A stretch of 64,000 nt of DNA from an uncultured Chthonomonas sp. GTDB taxonomy: Bacteria; Armatimonadota; Chthonomonadetes; Chthonomonadales; CAJBBX01. Made by a program: the position numbers and the translations under genes. The notes below the pieces were generated by a model. That model was not told where the DNA came from. It was given only the letters and a program-made list of their open reading frames with translations, and did no database searches. The stretch is taken from assembly GCA_903951425.1 (NCBI GenBank), contig CAJBBX010000157.1, positions 1-64,000 of the forward strand, written 5' to 3'. This document shows positions 25,988-31,328 of the stretch, in pieces. Each line of letters starts with the position of its first letter. Within the stretch, counting starts at the first letter, position 1.

Positions 25988-26035
25988 CTACCATATGTTG
26001 GGGCTGCGATCATGATATCACCCTACATGTGGCGT
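25988..26035 (-). promoter_or_regulatory. Two candidate NrdR boxes
   Basis: On the minus strand ACGCCACATGTAGGGT (26035-26020) and CCCCAACATATGGTAG (26003-25988) match the consensus ACACwATATaTwGTGT at 11 and 10 of 16 positions by my hand count. Their starts are 32 bases apart, about three helical turns, and they overlap or flank the promoter. The matches are moderate. Confidence 0.45.
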
Positions 26036-26040
26036 GTCAA
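26012..26040 (-). promoter_or_regulatory. Promoter of nrdR-nrdJ
   Basis: TTGACA (26040-26035), a 17-base spacer and TATCAT (26017-26012) on the minus strand, about 45 bases ahead of nrdR. From here to 26284 no other feature was recognised. Confidence 0.8.
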
Positions 26041-26284
26041 GGGTACCTTGGCGCTGTTGGCCCAGAGCGTCGCGGGCCATAGCCGGGACGTGGCCGTTCC
26101 GGCCCACCCCATACCGACCGGCTTGCAGGCGTTAGCGCTCGGGCTGTGTCCGGCGTAGTGCGCGTATCAGTTCGGTCGCTCGTGGATCGCCCGACTGCAC
26201 TGGCTGCATAGGTGGAGCCGGCAGGCGCGAGCGCTGACTTGGCGCGGGCGCTGGGCCTGCGGCACTGGGCGATGTACCTCCGGT

Positions 26285-26944
26285 TCAACGCCGGGCGAGC
26301 CCCGCCGCCGGGGTGGTGGCTTCGAAGCGGGTCCGATCCCTACAGGTTAGGCGCGCCTGTGCCCAGACGTCCAGGCGCGCCGGATACGCCGGTTGTTCCG
26401 ATGGCCCTCGAGACCGTACCGAAGACGGCTCCCTGCCGGCGACCATGAGCTTGCGCCCCCTGGACTGCTCCAAGATGGTGACTGCGCCCTCACGCACTGC
26501 GGCCTCGTCGCCAAGGAGCAGTACGTCCAGCCCGCGATGGACTCGAGTGCAGATCGATGGGTCCATGTCAGCCATCGCATCGCGGCGGGGCCGTTGGTTC
26601 AGTCCACGGCACCCCGAGCGTGCGCCGTGAAGGGCGACACGTCGGCGCCCGGTATCTGGTAGGGAGGTGTCCCAGCTTGTTGGGTTGGCCGCCAGGCTGC
26701 AGCAAGGCCTGTGCCTCCGCCGATCTGAGGCGAGCAGTTTGGGCGGCCCACCCTCGGAGACGCGGCCATTGAACTGATCGCGGTGGTCATGGCGCTTCTT
26801 CAACTCCGACGCCGCGGTAGCCTCCAGCATGCAACAGGCCATGTCGCCCCGAACTGCACTGAGGTCGCCGTACATCCCGTCCTCAGGGTCGCCGATCCGC
26901 GATGCCATTTGACCGAACACCGACCGCAAAGATACACTGACCAT
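26285..26944 (-). CDS. Hypothetical protein with hairpin-controlled start
   Basis: A 220-residue reading starting at ATG 26944, directly behind GAGGAGAGGAG. The start MVSVSLRSVFGQMASRIGDP and a middle part (RGDMACCMLEATAASELKKR) look protein-like, as does TRVHRGLDVLLLGDEAAVRE later on. The stretch between them and the last 45 residues are arginine-rich and may come from a damaged or frameshifted gene. No family was recognised. The ribosome site lies inside the left arm of a 61-base hairpin, so translation may be controlled. Coding status is uncertain. Confidence 0.4.
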   Translation of the reverse strand: MVSVSLRSVFGQMASRIGDPEDGMYGDLSAVRGDMACCMLEATAASELKKRHDHRDQFNGRVSEGGPPKLLASDRRRHRPCCSLAANPTSWDTSLPDTGRRRVALHGARSGCRGLNQRPRRDAMADMDPSICTRVHRGLDVLLLGDEAAVREGAVTILEQSRGRKLMVAGREPSSVRSRGPSEQPAYPARLDVWAQARLTCRDRTRFEATTPAAGLARR

Positions 26945-27005
26945 CAGAGTGCTCCTCTCCTCGTGGATTGTCCCCACAACCCCTACGAAGAGCAGGAGCA
27001 CTCTG
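26945..27005. repeat. Long near-perfect hairpin masking a ribosome site
   Basis: Outer arms CAGAGTGCTCCT (26945-26956) and AGGAGCACTCTG (26994-27005) are perfect inverted repeats. Inner pairs CTC-TCGT-GG-TTGT with ACAA-CC-ACGA-GAG continue the stem to a CCCC loop. On the minus strand the arm adjoining the ATG at 26944 includes the AGGAG ribosome site. Confidence 0.75.
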
Positions 27006-27167
27006 GTCTGTAACGCACTCCCACCATGTACTACCCGGTCGGCGGCGGCTCCCGGCGCACCACGGGCTGCCGGGAGGGCTCCCGGATGGCGCCGATGCAG
27101 GACTTCGGCGTCGGTGCGTGCAATCATCAGGACGATCGACAGCCCTCCTCACACTGGAGCAACTGCT

Positions 27168-30100
27168 ATGCGCCTCGTTTCGACCCTTGCCCTGCTTGTC
27201 GCGCTCTGCCCCATCCCTGCCGGCGCCGGCCCCACGGCCGCAGGCTTGGCACGCGGCTTCCAGTCCCCGCCTGCGTCGGCGCGGCCGTGGGTCTACTGGT
27301 TCTGGTTGAACGGGAACATCACTCGCGAGGGCATCACCGCCGATCTGGAGGCCATGAAGCGCGTCGGGATCGGCGGGGTACTCATCATGGAGGTGGATCA
27401 GGGCACGCCGCTGGGCCCGGTCGCGTTTGCCGGCGAGCAGTGGCGGTCGATCTTCCGGCATGTGGTCTCCGAGGCCGCTCGCCTGGGCCTAAAGGTCAAC
27501 ATGAACAACGACGCGGGCTGGTGCGGTAGCGGGGGCCCGTGGATCACGCCGGAACTGGCCATGCAGCGCCTCGTCTGGATCGAGACGTCCGTGGACGGGC
27601 CGGGGCAGCTCGACCGCCAGCTTCCGCGGCCGGTAGCCGTGGCAGGCTACTACCGGGACGTGGCCGTCCTGGCCTACCCGACGCCGGCCGATCCGGGCCG
27701 GATCGCGGGTGTTAATGCTCGGGCTGTGGCCGACATCGTAGGCGTGTCGCTTCCGACTCCCGTGGACGTCCCGACCGCGCCAGCTGCACGGGTAGTGCCG
27801 GAGGGCGCGATCGTGGACTTGACCCAGAGGATGGACCGCGGCGGGCGCCTGCAGTGGGACGTCCCGCCGGGACGGTGGACCATCCTGCGACTGGGCCATA
27901 CGCCCACAGGCGCCAACAACGCCCCCTCGCCTGAGTCGGGCAGGGGGCTGGAGTGCGACAAGCTGAGCAAGGCCGCCTCCCGTGCCATGTTTGAGGGCCT
28001 GATGGGCAAGCTGGTGGCCGATGTGGGACCTCTGGCCGGCAAGGCGCTGGTATCGACCCACATTGACAGCTGGGAGGTGGGCGTCCAGAACTGGACCCCG
28101 AAGATGCGGGAGGAGTTCCGGTCCCGTCGCGGCTACGACCCGCTGGCATGGCTGCCGGTCATCACCGGTCGCACAGTGGGCGGGGCGGAGCAGTCCGAGC
28201 GGTTCCTGTGGGACTGGCGGCAGACGATCTCCGAACTGGTGCTCGACAACTACGCCGGGGCGTTCCGCGCGCTGGCACACGAGCACGGCATCGGCCTCAG
28301 CATCGAAGCCTACAACACCTGCCCGACGGACGAAATGGCCTACGCCGGCCGCGCCGATGAGCCTATGGGTGAGTTCTGGTCATGGGGGAAGTACGGCGCG
28401 GCCTACAGCGTGCGCGAGATGGCCTCTGCGGGGCACGTTTACGGCAAGCCCATCATCGGCGCGGAGGCCTTCACCGCGGCCGACGGCGAGGCGTGGCAGG
28501 GGTATCCGGGCAATATCAAGGACCTTGGCGACTGGGCCTTCTGCGAGGGGATCAACCGGTTTGTGTTCCACCGGTATGCATTGCAGCCGTGGCGCGACGT
28601 TCGCCCCGGCATGTCCATGGGGCCGTGGGGGCTCCACTACGAGCGGACCCAGACCTGGTGGGAGCAGTCGTCGGCGTGGCATCGCTACCTCTCCCGATGC
28701 CAGTATCTCCTGCAGCAGGGGCTCTTCGTGGCTGATACCTGCTTGCTCGGACCCGAGGGCTCCCCGCAGTCGGTCAACGGCCAGGCGTCCCTGGCATCGC
28801 TGGAGCGCCCGCCGTACAACTTCGACGTCTGCCCGCCCGACGCAGCGCTCACGCGGATGTCGGTGCGGGCTGGCCGGCTGGTCATGCCTGACGGCATGAG
28901 CTACCGGCTACTGGCCTTGCCGCGGGTGGAAGCCATGACGCCCAGGCTGCTCCGCAAGGTGCGCGACCTCGTGCGGGCAGGCGCCACCGTGGCCGGGCCA
29001 AGGCCGCGGAAGTCGCCCGGCCTGAGCGGCTTCCCCGGATGCGACGCGGAAGTGCGCCGGATGGCGGCAGAGCTATGGGGCTCAGGCCCGACGCCGGCAG
29101 GCATCGCTGAGCGGCGCGTTGGCAAGGGGCGTGTGATCTGGGGATCGGCGTTCCTGCCGTCGCAACCTGCCGGCGTCGAGCCACGGCTTGCCGGCGCGGA
29201 GTGGGTCTGGTACCCCGAGGGGCGTCCGGATGTCTTTGCGCCGCCCGCCCGCCGGTACTTCGTGCGTGGGTTCGACGTGCCGGACCGATCTGCGGTGCGC
29301 ACGGCGAAGCTGGCGATCACGGCAGACAACGAGTTCCAGGTCTGGCTGAACGGGCGGCTGGCCGGCGAGGGCAACGCCTTCAACCGTGTGTTCGTGTTCG
29401 ACGTGGCAGGCCTCCTGCTGACCGGCGCCAACACGCTGGCCGTTGTGGCGGTGAACGCCACCGATCTGCCGAACCCGGCGGGGTTGATTGCATCGCTGGA
29501 GATCCGCCTTCGTTCCGGTCAGGTCCAGGCCATCCGGTCCGGACGTTCCTGGCGGGCGGCATCGGCGGTCCCGGCCGGCTGGCCCATCCCTGCGACTCAG
29601 GGCACAAGCTGGGCGGATGCACTGGAGTTGGGGCCGCTGGGTATGGCGCCGTGGGGCGATGTTGAGGCGGGTTCCACGGCGTCGAACCTGTACCCCGATC
29701 TGGACCTTATCACCCGGCTGCACCGGCGCATGGGCCTGCCGCCCGACTTCGGGAGCCGGACAGCGAACGGGCTGGCGGGCTTCCGGTACATCCACAAGGT
29801 GATCGCCGGGAACGACGTCTACTTCCTCTCCAACAAGGAGCCCCGCGCCGTCGAGGCGGTCTGCTCGTTCCGGCCGTCGGGGAAGCGGCCCGAGCTGTGG
29901 TGGCCCGACACCGGCCGCACCGAGCGGCCGGCGATATACGACACTGCAGCCAACGGGACCATCCGCATGCCGGTGCGCTTGGGGCCCAGTGGCTCGGTCT
30001 TTGTGGTCTTTCCCGCTGGCGAGATGGCCGAGCCCAATCGGATCGTGCGCGTGGAGCGGGCCGGCGCGCCAGTGACTTCCGCTGTGCTGCCTCCGGCCGT

Positions 30101-31328
30101 TTCTGCGTCCGCGGCCACCAGTTCGGCTCCTTCGCGGAGCTTCACGCTTGCGGTCTGGGTCAGGCCCGGTGCGCCGACGACGCTGGTCCGCGAGACCAAC
30201 CGCGGCATCAGCGGCCAGGACGAGCCGCGCAACGATGCGCTCTACCCCGCGCCTGGTCATGAGGCGTTCGGCGATTGGGGCAGCGCCGGCGTCGGCCTGG
30301 CCGTCGGCAGCAACGGCGTCTGCGTGTTCGAGCATGGAGCCGACCACTTCGCGCCGGTGCTGGTATGGCCGGCCCGCCTCAACACCTGGACCCACGTAGC
30401 GGTGGTCTACCGTGACGGCGTGCCGGCGCTCTACCTGAATGGACGCAAGGCGCATGTCGGGCTGTCTGGTCCACTTGTGGCACGCTCCGGCTTGGGTGTG
30501 GCGCATGGCAGGCCCATCCCACCGTTCGCCGGCGAGCTCGGTCTATTCCGCCAGGTGGGCAGGGCTTTGTCGGATGCCGAGGTTGCGCTGTGGGCCCGGT
30601 CCATGCCGCGTCCCAAGGACAGGGCGCCCGATGCGGCAGTCGCCGTCACCCGCGATGCGACGGGCAGGCTGGTGGTTGATTCGAGCACGCCCGGCGCCTA
30701 CACGTTGCACGCCGCCGACGGCAGCGTGCAGCGCCTGGTCGTGCCCGGCCTACCGTCCGCTCTGACGCTCCATGGGCCGTGGGAGGTGAAGTTCGCCAAG
30801 GGCTGGGGTGCGCCTGATCGGATTGATGTCCCGGCGCTGGCCTCGCTGAACCAACATGCCGACGCGGGCGTGCGGCACTACTCGGGCGTGGCGTCCTACA
30901 CCACCAGCCTCGCCGTGCCTGCCGGCTTGCTCGCCGGCGGACGGCGCATCGAACTCGACCTGGGCGTCGTGGCCGTCATGGCCGATGTGACGCTGAATGG
31001 CCGCAAGCTCGGGACCCTCTGGCACGCTCCCTTCCGGCTGGATGTCACGAGTGCGCTCAGGTCGGGCCCCAACGTGCTCAAGGTCGACGTGGCCAACCTC
31101 TGGGTGAACAGGCAGATTGGTGACGAGTCGCTCCCTGAGGACAGCGATCGAACCCCCAGCGGCACCCTTCGCTCCTGGCCCGAGTGGCTGCAGCAGGGCC
31201 AGCCCAGCCCCACGGGCCGCTTCACGTTCACGAGCTGGCGCCTCTGGCATGGGAACTCGCCGCTCGTGGAGTCGGGGCTGGTCGGGCCGGTGAAGCTGGA
31301 GGTGGTGCAGAGGGTGGTCGGACGCTAA
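27168..31328 (+). CDS. Secreted GH106-type alpha-L-rhamnosidase, multidomain
   Basis: A 1386-residue exported glycoside hydrolase with signal peptide MRLVSTLALLVALCPIPAGA. The mature start RPWVYWFWLNGNITREGITA and VGIGGVLIMEVDQGTPLGPV match the GH106 rhamnosidase barrel, which extends to about residue 640. A jelly-roll segment (FQVWLNGRLAGEGNAF, about 700-780) is followed near 985-1150 by a laminin-G/concanavalin-like module (TLAVWVRPGAPTT; NTWTHVAVVYRDGVPALYLN) and a final beta-sandwich (ELDLGVVAVMADVTLNGRKL). It should remove rhamnose from plant or bacterial polysaccharides. ATG 27168 has GGAG eight bases upstream; the reading further upstream is not coding. It heads a run with a GH78-like gene and a URO-D-family gene. 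Confidence 0.88.
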   Translation: MRLVSTLALLVALCPIPAGAGPTAAGLARGFQSPPASARPWVYWFWLNGNITREGITADLEAMKRVGIGGVLIMEVDQGTPLGPVAFAGEQWRSIFRHVVSEAARLGLKVNMNNDAGWCGSGGPWITPELAMQRLVWIETSVDGPGQLDRQLPRPVAVAGYYRDVAVLAYPTPADPGRIAGVNARAVADIVGVSLPTPVDVPTAPAARVVPEGAIVDLTQRMDRGGRLQWDVPPGRWTILRLGHTPTGANNAPSPESGRGLECDKLSKAASRAMFEGLMGKLVADVGPLAGKALVSTHIDSWEVGVQNWTPKMREEFRSRRGYDPLAWLPVITGRTVGGAEQSERFLWDWRQTISELVLDNYAGAFRALAHEHGIGLSIEAYNTCPTDEMAYAGRADEPMGEFWSWGKYGAAYSVREMASAGHVYGKPIIGAEAFTAADGEAWQGYPGNIKDLGDWAFCEGINRFVFHRYALQPWRDVRPGMSMGPWGLHYERTQTWWEQSSAWHRYLSRCQYLLQQGLFVADTCLLGPEGSPQSVNGQASLASLERPPYNFDVCPPDAALTRMSVRAGRLVMPDGMSYRLLALPRVEAMTPRLLRKVRDLVRAGATVAGPRPRKSPGLSGFPGCDAEVRRMAAELWGSGPTPAGIAERRVGKGRVIWGSAFLPSQPAGVEPRLAGAEWVWYPEGRPDVFAPPARRYFVRGFDVPDRSAVRTAKLAITADNEFQVWLNGRLAGEGNAFNRVFVFDVAGLLLTGANTLAVVAVNATDLPNPAGLIASLEIRLRSGQVQAIRSGRSWRAASAVPAGWPIPATQGTSWADALELGPLGMAPWGDVEAGSTASNLYPDLDLITRLHRRMGLPPDFGSRTANGLAGFRYIHKVIAGNDVYFLSNKEPRAVEAVCSFRPSGKRPELWWPDTGRTERPAIYDTAANGTIRMPVRLGPSGSVFVVFPAGEMAEPNRIVRVERAGAPVTSAVLPPAVSASAATSSAPSRSFTLAVWVRPGAPTTLVRETNRGISGQDEPRNDALYPAPGHEAFGDWGSAGVGLAVGSNGVCVFEHGADHFAPVLVWPARLNTWTHVAVVYRDGVPALYLNGRKAHVGLSGPLVARSGLGVAHGRPIPPFAGELGLFRQVGRALSDAEVALWARSMPRPKDRAPDAAVAVTRDATGRLVVDSSTPGAYTLHAADGSVQRLVVPGLPSALTLHGPWEVKFAKGWGAPDRIDVPALASLNQHADAGVRHYSGVASYTTSLAVPAGLLAGGRRIELDLGVVAVMADVTLNGRKLGTLWHAPFRLDVTSALRSGPNVLKVDVANLWVNRQIGDESLPEDSDRTPSGTLRSWPEWLQQGQPSPTGRFTFTSWRLWHGNSPLVESGLVGPVKLEVVQRVVGR

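Follow-up and report, generated by a model that had tools for sequence, protein, structure and literature searches.

A start-codon palindrome and a predicted antisense promoter at the left end of IS256-family insertion sequences, from a remnant in an uncultured Chthonomonas

The window analysed here is the whole stretch of 64,000 nucleotides from the first part of a contig of an uncultured Chthonomonas sp. It contains, on the minus strand, the left end of a decayed insertion sequence, in which a 61-base palindrome separates a terminal repeat from the start codon of a truncated transposase (tnp) frame. The features of this locus are listed below, where G000 is the source genome and G002 a genome of the same genus.

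26798..27035, minus: remnant of an IS256-family insertion sequence, comprising the left end, the leader and the first ~49-51 transposase codons (blastn and tblastn against the intact copy)
27006..27035, minus: left terminal inverted repeat with its tip at 27035; 9 of 30 bases differ from the intact copy (ends compared with the copies of G000:C53 and G002)
26945..27005, minus: 61-nt palindrome, leader hairpin of the tnp mRNA; its plus strand is the body of the predicted antisense RNA; identical in G000:C53
26952..26956, minus: AGGAG ribosome-binding site lying 7 nt 5' of the ATG, within the paired outer helix (sequence and predicted pairing)
26909..26938, plus: predicted antisense sigma-70-like promoter TTGACC-18-TACACT in the first tnp codons, pointing into the hairpin; score 11.8, z 4.5
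26786..26944, minus: truncated transposase frame with ATG at 26944-26942; the first 53 residues are 81% identical to the intact transposase

When the minus strand is folded, a near-perfect stem-loop occupies exactly positions 26945-27005. Twelve perfect outer pairs (CAGAGUGCUCCU/AGGAGCACUCUG) are followed by inner helices, giving 27 pairs in total, and the four-base loop is GGGG in the mRNA, corresponding to CCCC on the plus strand. The stem directly abuts the ATG at 26944-26942, and the AGGAG at 26956-26952, 7 bases 5' of this ATG, is paired within it, with a predicted unpaired probability of 0.002 at 37 C. The MFE of the segment 26935-27015 (minus) is -47.2 kcal/mol, against a mean of -25.3 (sd 3.4) in shuffled sequences (z -6.5), and none of 200 shuffles was as stable. 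The arms, the inner pairing, the loop, the position of the stem against the ATG and the buried ribosome site had all been pointed out in a preliminary description made from the letters, together with the remark that translation from this ATG would need the stem to open. The in-silico fold bears out each of these points, and confirms that the 61-base hairpin is real and that AGGAG is buried in it. The plus strand also folds: the segment 26945-27035 has a predicted energy of -36.3 kcal/mol, with the whole 61-nt stem included. What the preliminary description overlooked is that the ATG opens a transposase truncated after about 51 codons and that an antisense promoter points into the hairpin.

The nature of the locus became clear from a second site with the same 61 bases. 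It was found by searching the source genome for further copies, a check named in the preliminary description, and lies at G000:C53:44096-44156, where the sequence is identical over the hairpin. There, the ATG after the hairpin opens an intact 409-aa transposase, which matches the Pfam profile Transposase_mut (E 3.4e-65) and the NCBIfam IS256 equivalog (249.8 bits for a cutoff of 150). This intact copy is 1463 bp long (L005 1725-3187, or G000:C53:42724-44186), has terminal inverted repeats with a subterminal TGTAA motif (ends GGTAGTTCATGATCGGAGTGTGTAAG and GGTCGTGTCAACTGGAGTGTGTAAC), and is flanked on both sides by a 9-bp target duplication, CGGCACCCG. The duplication is that of the intact copy, the window copy being devoid of a right end, and in the window remnant the TGTAA motif is degraded. 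Read from the sequence only, the intact copy has an outward TTGACA at bp 6-11 of its right end and CATGAT at bp 8-13 of its left end. These are the positions that the available text of PMC7780238 gives for the -35 (bp 6-11, right end) and the -10 (bp 8-13, left end) of ISCth4.

Compared with the window, the 1463-bp copy aligns by blastn over 238 bp with 89.9% identity (26798-27035) and its transposase by tblastn over residues 1-51 with 84% identity; beyond this block the remainder of the insertion sequence is unrecognisable in the window. Transposase, terminal repeats and target duplication place the intact copy in the IS256 family; the window keeps only the first 51-53 transposase residues, and its hairpin is the leader found at the left end of this insertion sequence. 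Six copies of the left end are present in the genome G002, of which four lie at the end of a contig, and the outer boundary agrees to within a base in all five copies whose tip was read. The right end of the same element is also present at L065 (G000:C108) and L069 (G000:C23), where neither left end nor transposase was found, and these are further remnants. With 92% identity, an Armatimonadetes genome is the closest named relative.

Two observations concern the surroundings of the remnant. The segments 26083-26241 and 27653-27821 of the window are 69% identical over 169 bp and, judging from this similarity, the stretch downstream of the remnant is a decayed duplication that repeats part of a large plus-strand gene. 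On the same strand, the mechanically called start of a 1459-codon frame (26949-31328) is a GTG that falls in the hairpin; the more plausible start of this frame is at 27168, where it would begin like a signal peptide (MRLVSTLALLVAL).

We compared the leader with those of further IS256-family elements, found in the same phylum or carried by plasmids of Pseudomonadota, Bacillota, Actinomycetota, and one cyanobacterium. The collection comprised 47 leaders, i.e., the 46 of the leader-pairing test and the IS256 archetype (L111), and was reduced to 42 by dropping five near-duplicates (own_C53, G002_C207, G002_C109, L084, and L079). L103 was never counted and L020, L085, and L089 were without a usable start. 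For L087, L102, and L104 the start codon was reassigned manually from the sequence, and for the G073, G009, L038, and L039 elements it was set by comparison with the intact copy. The controls were 144 annotated genes of three plasmids, or 139 once those labelled IS or Tn were removed.

The sequences of the arms are unrelated between elements. What is repeated is their order, which runs from the terminal repeat through the 5' arm and the loop to a 3' arm containing the ribosome site, and then to the start codon. Of the 42 elements, 30 have their ribosome/start zone covered by the strongest stem found up to 110 bases from the start, compared with 22 of the 139 controls (p 3e-11); most of the stems in the elements end at -1/-2 or between +3 and +6 relative to the start codon. 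These numbers are from a strict scan, used instead of an earlier lenient one that produced long low-quality alignments (28/42 versus 45/139); the spread of stem ends inside a fixed search window is biased by that window and was not used. The upstream leader pairs with the start region better than shuffled sequences do (p<0.01) in 28 of the 46 leaders tested (21 of 41 without the five near-duplicates) versus 1 of 144 controls. For the IS256 archetype this pairing has a p of 0.015, and the stem engulfs the ATG. No good stem was found in L017, L098, and L099, the latter being the cyanobacterial element. The anatomy, its statistics, and its recurrence with differing sequences are established by this comparison.

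The masking can also be expressed as the cost of opening positions -15 to +5, which has a median of 15.0 kcal/mol in the elements and 8.1 in the controls (p 3e-12). For a transcript starting inside the stem, at -33, the cost drops to 5.9 in the elements, versus 6.9 in the controls. Hence, it is because the stem forms that the family median for opening the ribosome site goes from about 6 to 15 kcal/mol. In the window remnant, the cost is 25.3 kcal/mol and falls to 11.5 when the transcript starts inside the stem.

A few cases depart from this picture or extend beyond the family. The single positive among the 144 controls is an IS30 transposase of a Lactiplantibacillus plantarum plasmid (L106 10758), which has a start-covering hairpin with a z of about -6. 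Among 18 transposase genes of other families, two have p<0.01, and a Bradyrhizobium transposase (L110 28883) shows leader pairing with p 0.003. The start-covering hairpin may, given the IS30 and Bradyrhizobium cases, not be restricted to IS256. L007 and L102 have a second strong palindrome between the terminal repeat and the leader hairpin, with 17-bp perfect arms in L007, which recalls the two stem-loops of IS200. L124, from an Arcobacter cloacae plasmid, has a perfect hairpin of 16 bp immediately upstream of its ribosome site, with a T-run after it on the sense strand; this resembles a terminator that stops incoming transcripts more than a mask of the ribosome site.

The second component of the left end is the antisense promoter. 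Scanned blindly for promoters, the intact left end gave one match only, for 0.1 expected; this match is antisense, and the window has the same letters. Its predicted start is at about 26945, the first base of the hairpin. Across the family, an antisense promoter of score at least 5 with its -10 at coding positions +0 to +25 is found in 32 of 42 elements versus 19 of 139 controls. The same elements have few such promoters further in (5/42 at +26 to +51 and 3/42 at +52 to +77), and a sense-strand promoter of score at least 5 is found in 2 of 42. The antisense promoter scores below 5 in 10 of the 42 elements. In the 31 elements that have both a promoter of score at least 5 and a stem, the median offset between the stem base and the predicted antisense start is 1 nt, and it is at most 2 nt in 18 of them (permutation p 0.0008). 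A system of the RNA-OUT type has an antisense promoter overlapping the 5' end of tnp, and one is present here, by prediction only. A tnp promoter within the stem would restrict the block to read-through transcripts. This option was considered and rejected: the scan of the intact left end has no sense promoter, its sole match being the antisense one.

Past the stem, the antisense strand is T-rich (3.2 T in 9 positions versus 2.3 expected, p 0.0007). The tail in the window has 3 T in 9 and no U-run, and a U-run is likewise lacking in most GC-rich elements. The sequences of L094, L095, L097, L104, and IS256 look like those of a terminated stem-loop RNA on the antisense side; the archetype has the antisense promoter TTGAAT-17-TAAAAT and a U-tail.

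With the criteria fixed beforehand, we scored 12 fresh elements; L116 was excluded as too short, and L119-L121 as copies of L023, L017, and L081. The stem criterion selected 7 of the 12 (control 22/139, p 0.002) and the promoter criterion 5 of the 12 (control 19/139, p 0.02). These rates are below those of the discovery set, partly because some start codons that were picked blindly, those of L115, L117, and L122, look wrong; they were left unchanged.

The reading that we regard as best, and as probably correct, is that the locus encodes an antisense RNA of the RNA-OUT type and that the mirror image of this gene, in the mRNA, hides the start site. The palindrome would then, quite likely, be a control module at the left end of the IS256-family insertion sequence, with two jobs. 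In the first, the tnp mRNA would fold into the stem and sequester the ribosome site in the 3' arm, and transcripts including the 5' arm would therefore be translated poorly. The transcripts masked in this way would be those reading through from a neighbour and, by their position, those of the promoter formed when the ends of the element join in a circle. By analogy with ISCth4, the circle-junction promoter would start near bp 20, before the 5' arm, and thus the positions suggest that junction and read-through transcripts both carry the stem. In the second job, the promoter in the first transposase codons would initiate, at the stem base, an antisense RNA made of the same stem-loop and then, in several elements, of a U-run. 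As RNA-OUT does, it would pair with the mRNA leader, via loops and arms, and silence the transposase. A palindrome would be needed because one stretch must fold on both strands. The antisense RNA would presumably be exactly the stem-loop, and it may be produced in the Chthonomonas source organism and, still, by the remnant in the window.

The most serious rival, which we nevertheless find rather unlikely, keeps only the hairpin: a cis-acting block, as in IS200, of the translation of read-through and junction transcripts, with the antisense promoter as a by-product of conserved codons. It would account for the masking of the ribosome site only when the 5' arm is present and for the anchoring of the stems to the start codon, and in ISPpu9 mutations that weaken a similar leader structure raised translation 26-fold (PMC8450116, available text). 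However, the antisense promoter is confined to +0 to +25 although protein identity with the query is only ~25-50% for most elements, and the position of the stem base follows the predicted antisense start rather than a fixed codon position. Furthermore, the available text of PMC10266640 reports an antisense RNA measured at the same place in IS256. From the same text comes an observation that goes against our preferred reading of a mask combined with an antisense RNA: when the IS256 antisense promoter was deleted, circle formation fell as well, an effect not expected from simple repression.

The palindrome could instead act as DNA, as a site bound by the transposase or a host protein (operator or end recognition), with the RNA pairing as a side effect. 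The right end of the window element's intact copy does carry the 5' arm motif, GTGCTCCTGC, and the arms have no excess of wobble pairs: in arm alignments treating both kinds alike we counted 47 G-U versus 70 A-C (p 0.04), in the direction opposite to selection at the RNA level. Since G-U pairs are not in excess, sequence comparison by itself is no proof that selection acts on RNA and not on DNA. The advantage of the sense strand over its complement in folding is small (p 0.04). Compensatory changes in related genomes, mentioned in the preliminary description as a check, do exist as two pair changes in the stem of G002_C71, but 34 of 500 shuffles reach the same level of covariation in this close set of 4 sequences, which makes it weak alone. 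Against a DNA site, the mapped contacts of the ISCth4 transposase end at base pair 25, before the hairpin (PMC7780238, in the text available), the similarity between left and right ends stops well before the 5' arm in L014, L091, L092, L094, L097, and L105, among others, and the stem ends are anchored to the start codon. These three observations favour RNA over DNA, and we consider a DNA-level site improbable.

Two further proposals of the preliminary description can be set aside. A thermosensor or ligand-controlled leader, suggested by the ribosome site inside the stem, is very improbable: the predicted unpaired probability of AGGAG rises to only 0.012 at 65 C and 0.037 at 85 C, i.e., the site is more than 95% paired up to 85 C in the folding model and does not open in the growth temperature range, Rfam has no match to a riboswitch or other known RNA at E<=1 in positions 26000-28000 of the window, nor in the IS256 left end, and the downstream gene is a transposase, truncated in the window. 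A stand-alone, REP/MITE-like mobile palindrome is hardly credible: the hairpin is part of a mobile element and has copies at several places in two genomes, which could have passed for the many unrelated sites expected to refute a regulatory leader, but all copies read (two in the source genome, and C207, C109, C114, C90, C58, and C71 of G002) are joined to the same transposase start at one side and to the same terminal repeat at the other, each being the end of the same insertion sequence, where the hairpin is the transposase leader and not mobile by itself.

The mask and antisense RNA that we favour have a possible consequence for remnants. Between the window and the live copy, there are 0 differences in the 100 positions of the hairpin and antisense promoter versus 24 in the 138 positions of the rest of the 238-bp block (p 1e-6). 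In another remnant, G002_C71, the start codon has changed from ATG to ATC and the hairpin and the antisense promoter hexamers are kept. Because the hairpin and antisense promoter are unchanged though the transposase is lost, the window remnant may still make the silencer. One might then speculate, as a doubtful possibility at this stage, that dead copies are kept as antisense-RNA genes protecting the genome from the live copy in trans, a form of RNA-based immunity derived from an insertion sequence remnant. Gene conversion, a recent insertion with uneven decay, or assembly effects could also account for the unchanged module. If remnants do still make the silencer, genomes would have, in their decayed insertion sequences, a store of natural antisense genes that guard them against their own mobile elements.

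Elements of the IS256 family are widespread and of clinical importance, and to our knowledge the self-limitation of their transposase has been little studied. If one compact left-end module of promoter, palindrome, and start codon works family-wide, the same test becomes possible in many bacteria, and start-codon hairpins could be used to find element ends and transposase starts.

Antisense control and control by leader structure are of a known kind, and we did not find their present arrangement described for the IS256 family; among the open-access papers that the searches listed, we found no description of a family-wide leader palindrome in these elements. IS10 and IS50 have a cis-acting translation block specific to read-through transcripts. 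The transposase of IS10 is of an unrelated family, and its mRNA leader is not known to be a mirror-image stem with the ribosome site inside. The likeness lies in RNA-OUT/RNA-IN, where an antisense RNA overlapping the 5' end of tnp blocks ribosome binding (PMC7968456, available text). In ISPpu9, as far as the text of PMC8450116 was available, a structured leader hides the ribosome site and the antisense RNA Asr9 is complementary to this leader. However, this is a different insertion sequence with a long 5'-UTR, and Asr9 is proposed to activate by opening the leader. The tnpA leader of IS200 has a stem-loop that occludes the ribosome site (PMC3196728, partial text), and an antisense RNA exists (PMC8450116, likewise), whereas the transposase differs and there is an extra, transcription-terminating stem-loop.

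Two systems belong to the same family. ISCth4 has its right-end -35 and its left-end -10 at positions matching the candidate promoter halves of the window element's intact copy, a TGTAAA subterminal motif, and duplications of 8 bp, versus 9 for that copy; leader structure and translation are not discussed in the available text of PMC7780238, where the words "translation" and "ribosome" are absent. In IS256 of E. faecalis, according to the available text of PMC10266640, an antisense RNA at the first tnp start site (site 1) has a canonical sigma-70 promoter, and its loss raised Tnp-GFP. The resemblance is close: the same transposase family, a sigma-70 antisense promoter over the 5' end of tnp, and a lowering of the transposase. 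That text, in the part available, mentions no hairpin, stem, or terminator, whereas our proposal is that the leader palindrome itself forms the RNA and that this holds family-wide.
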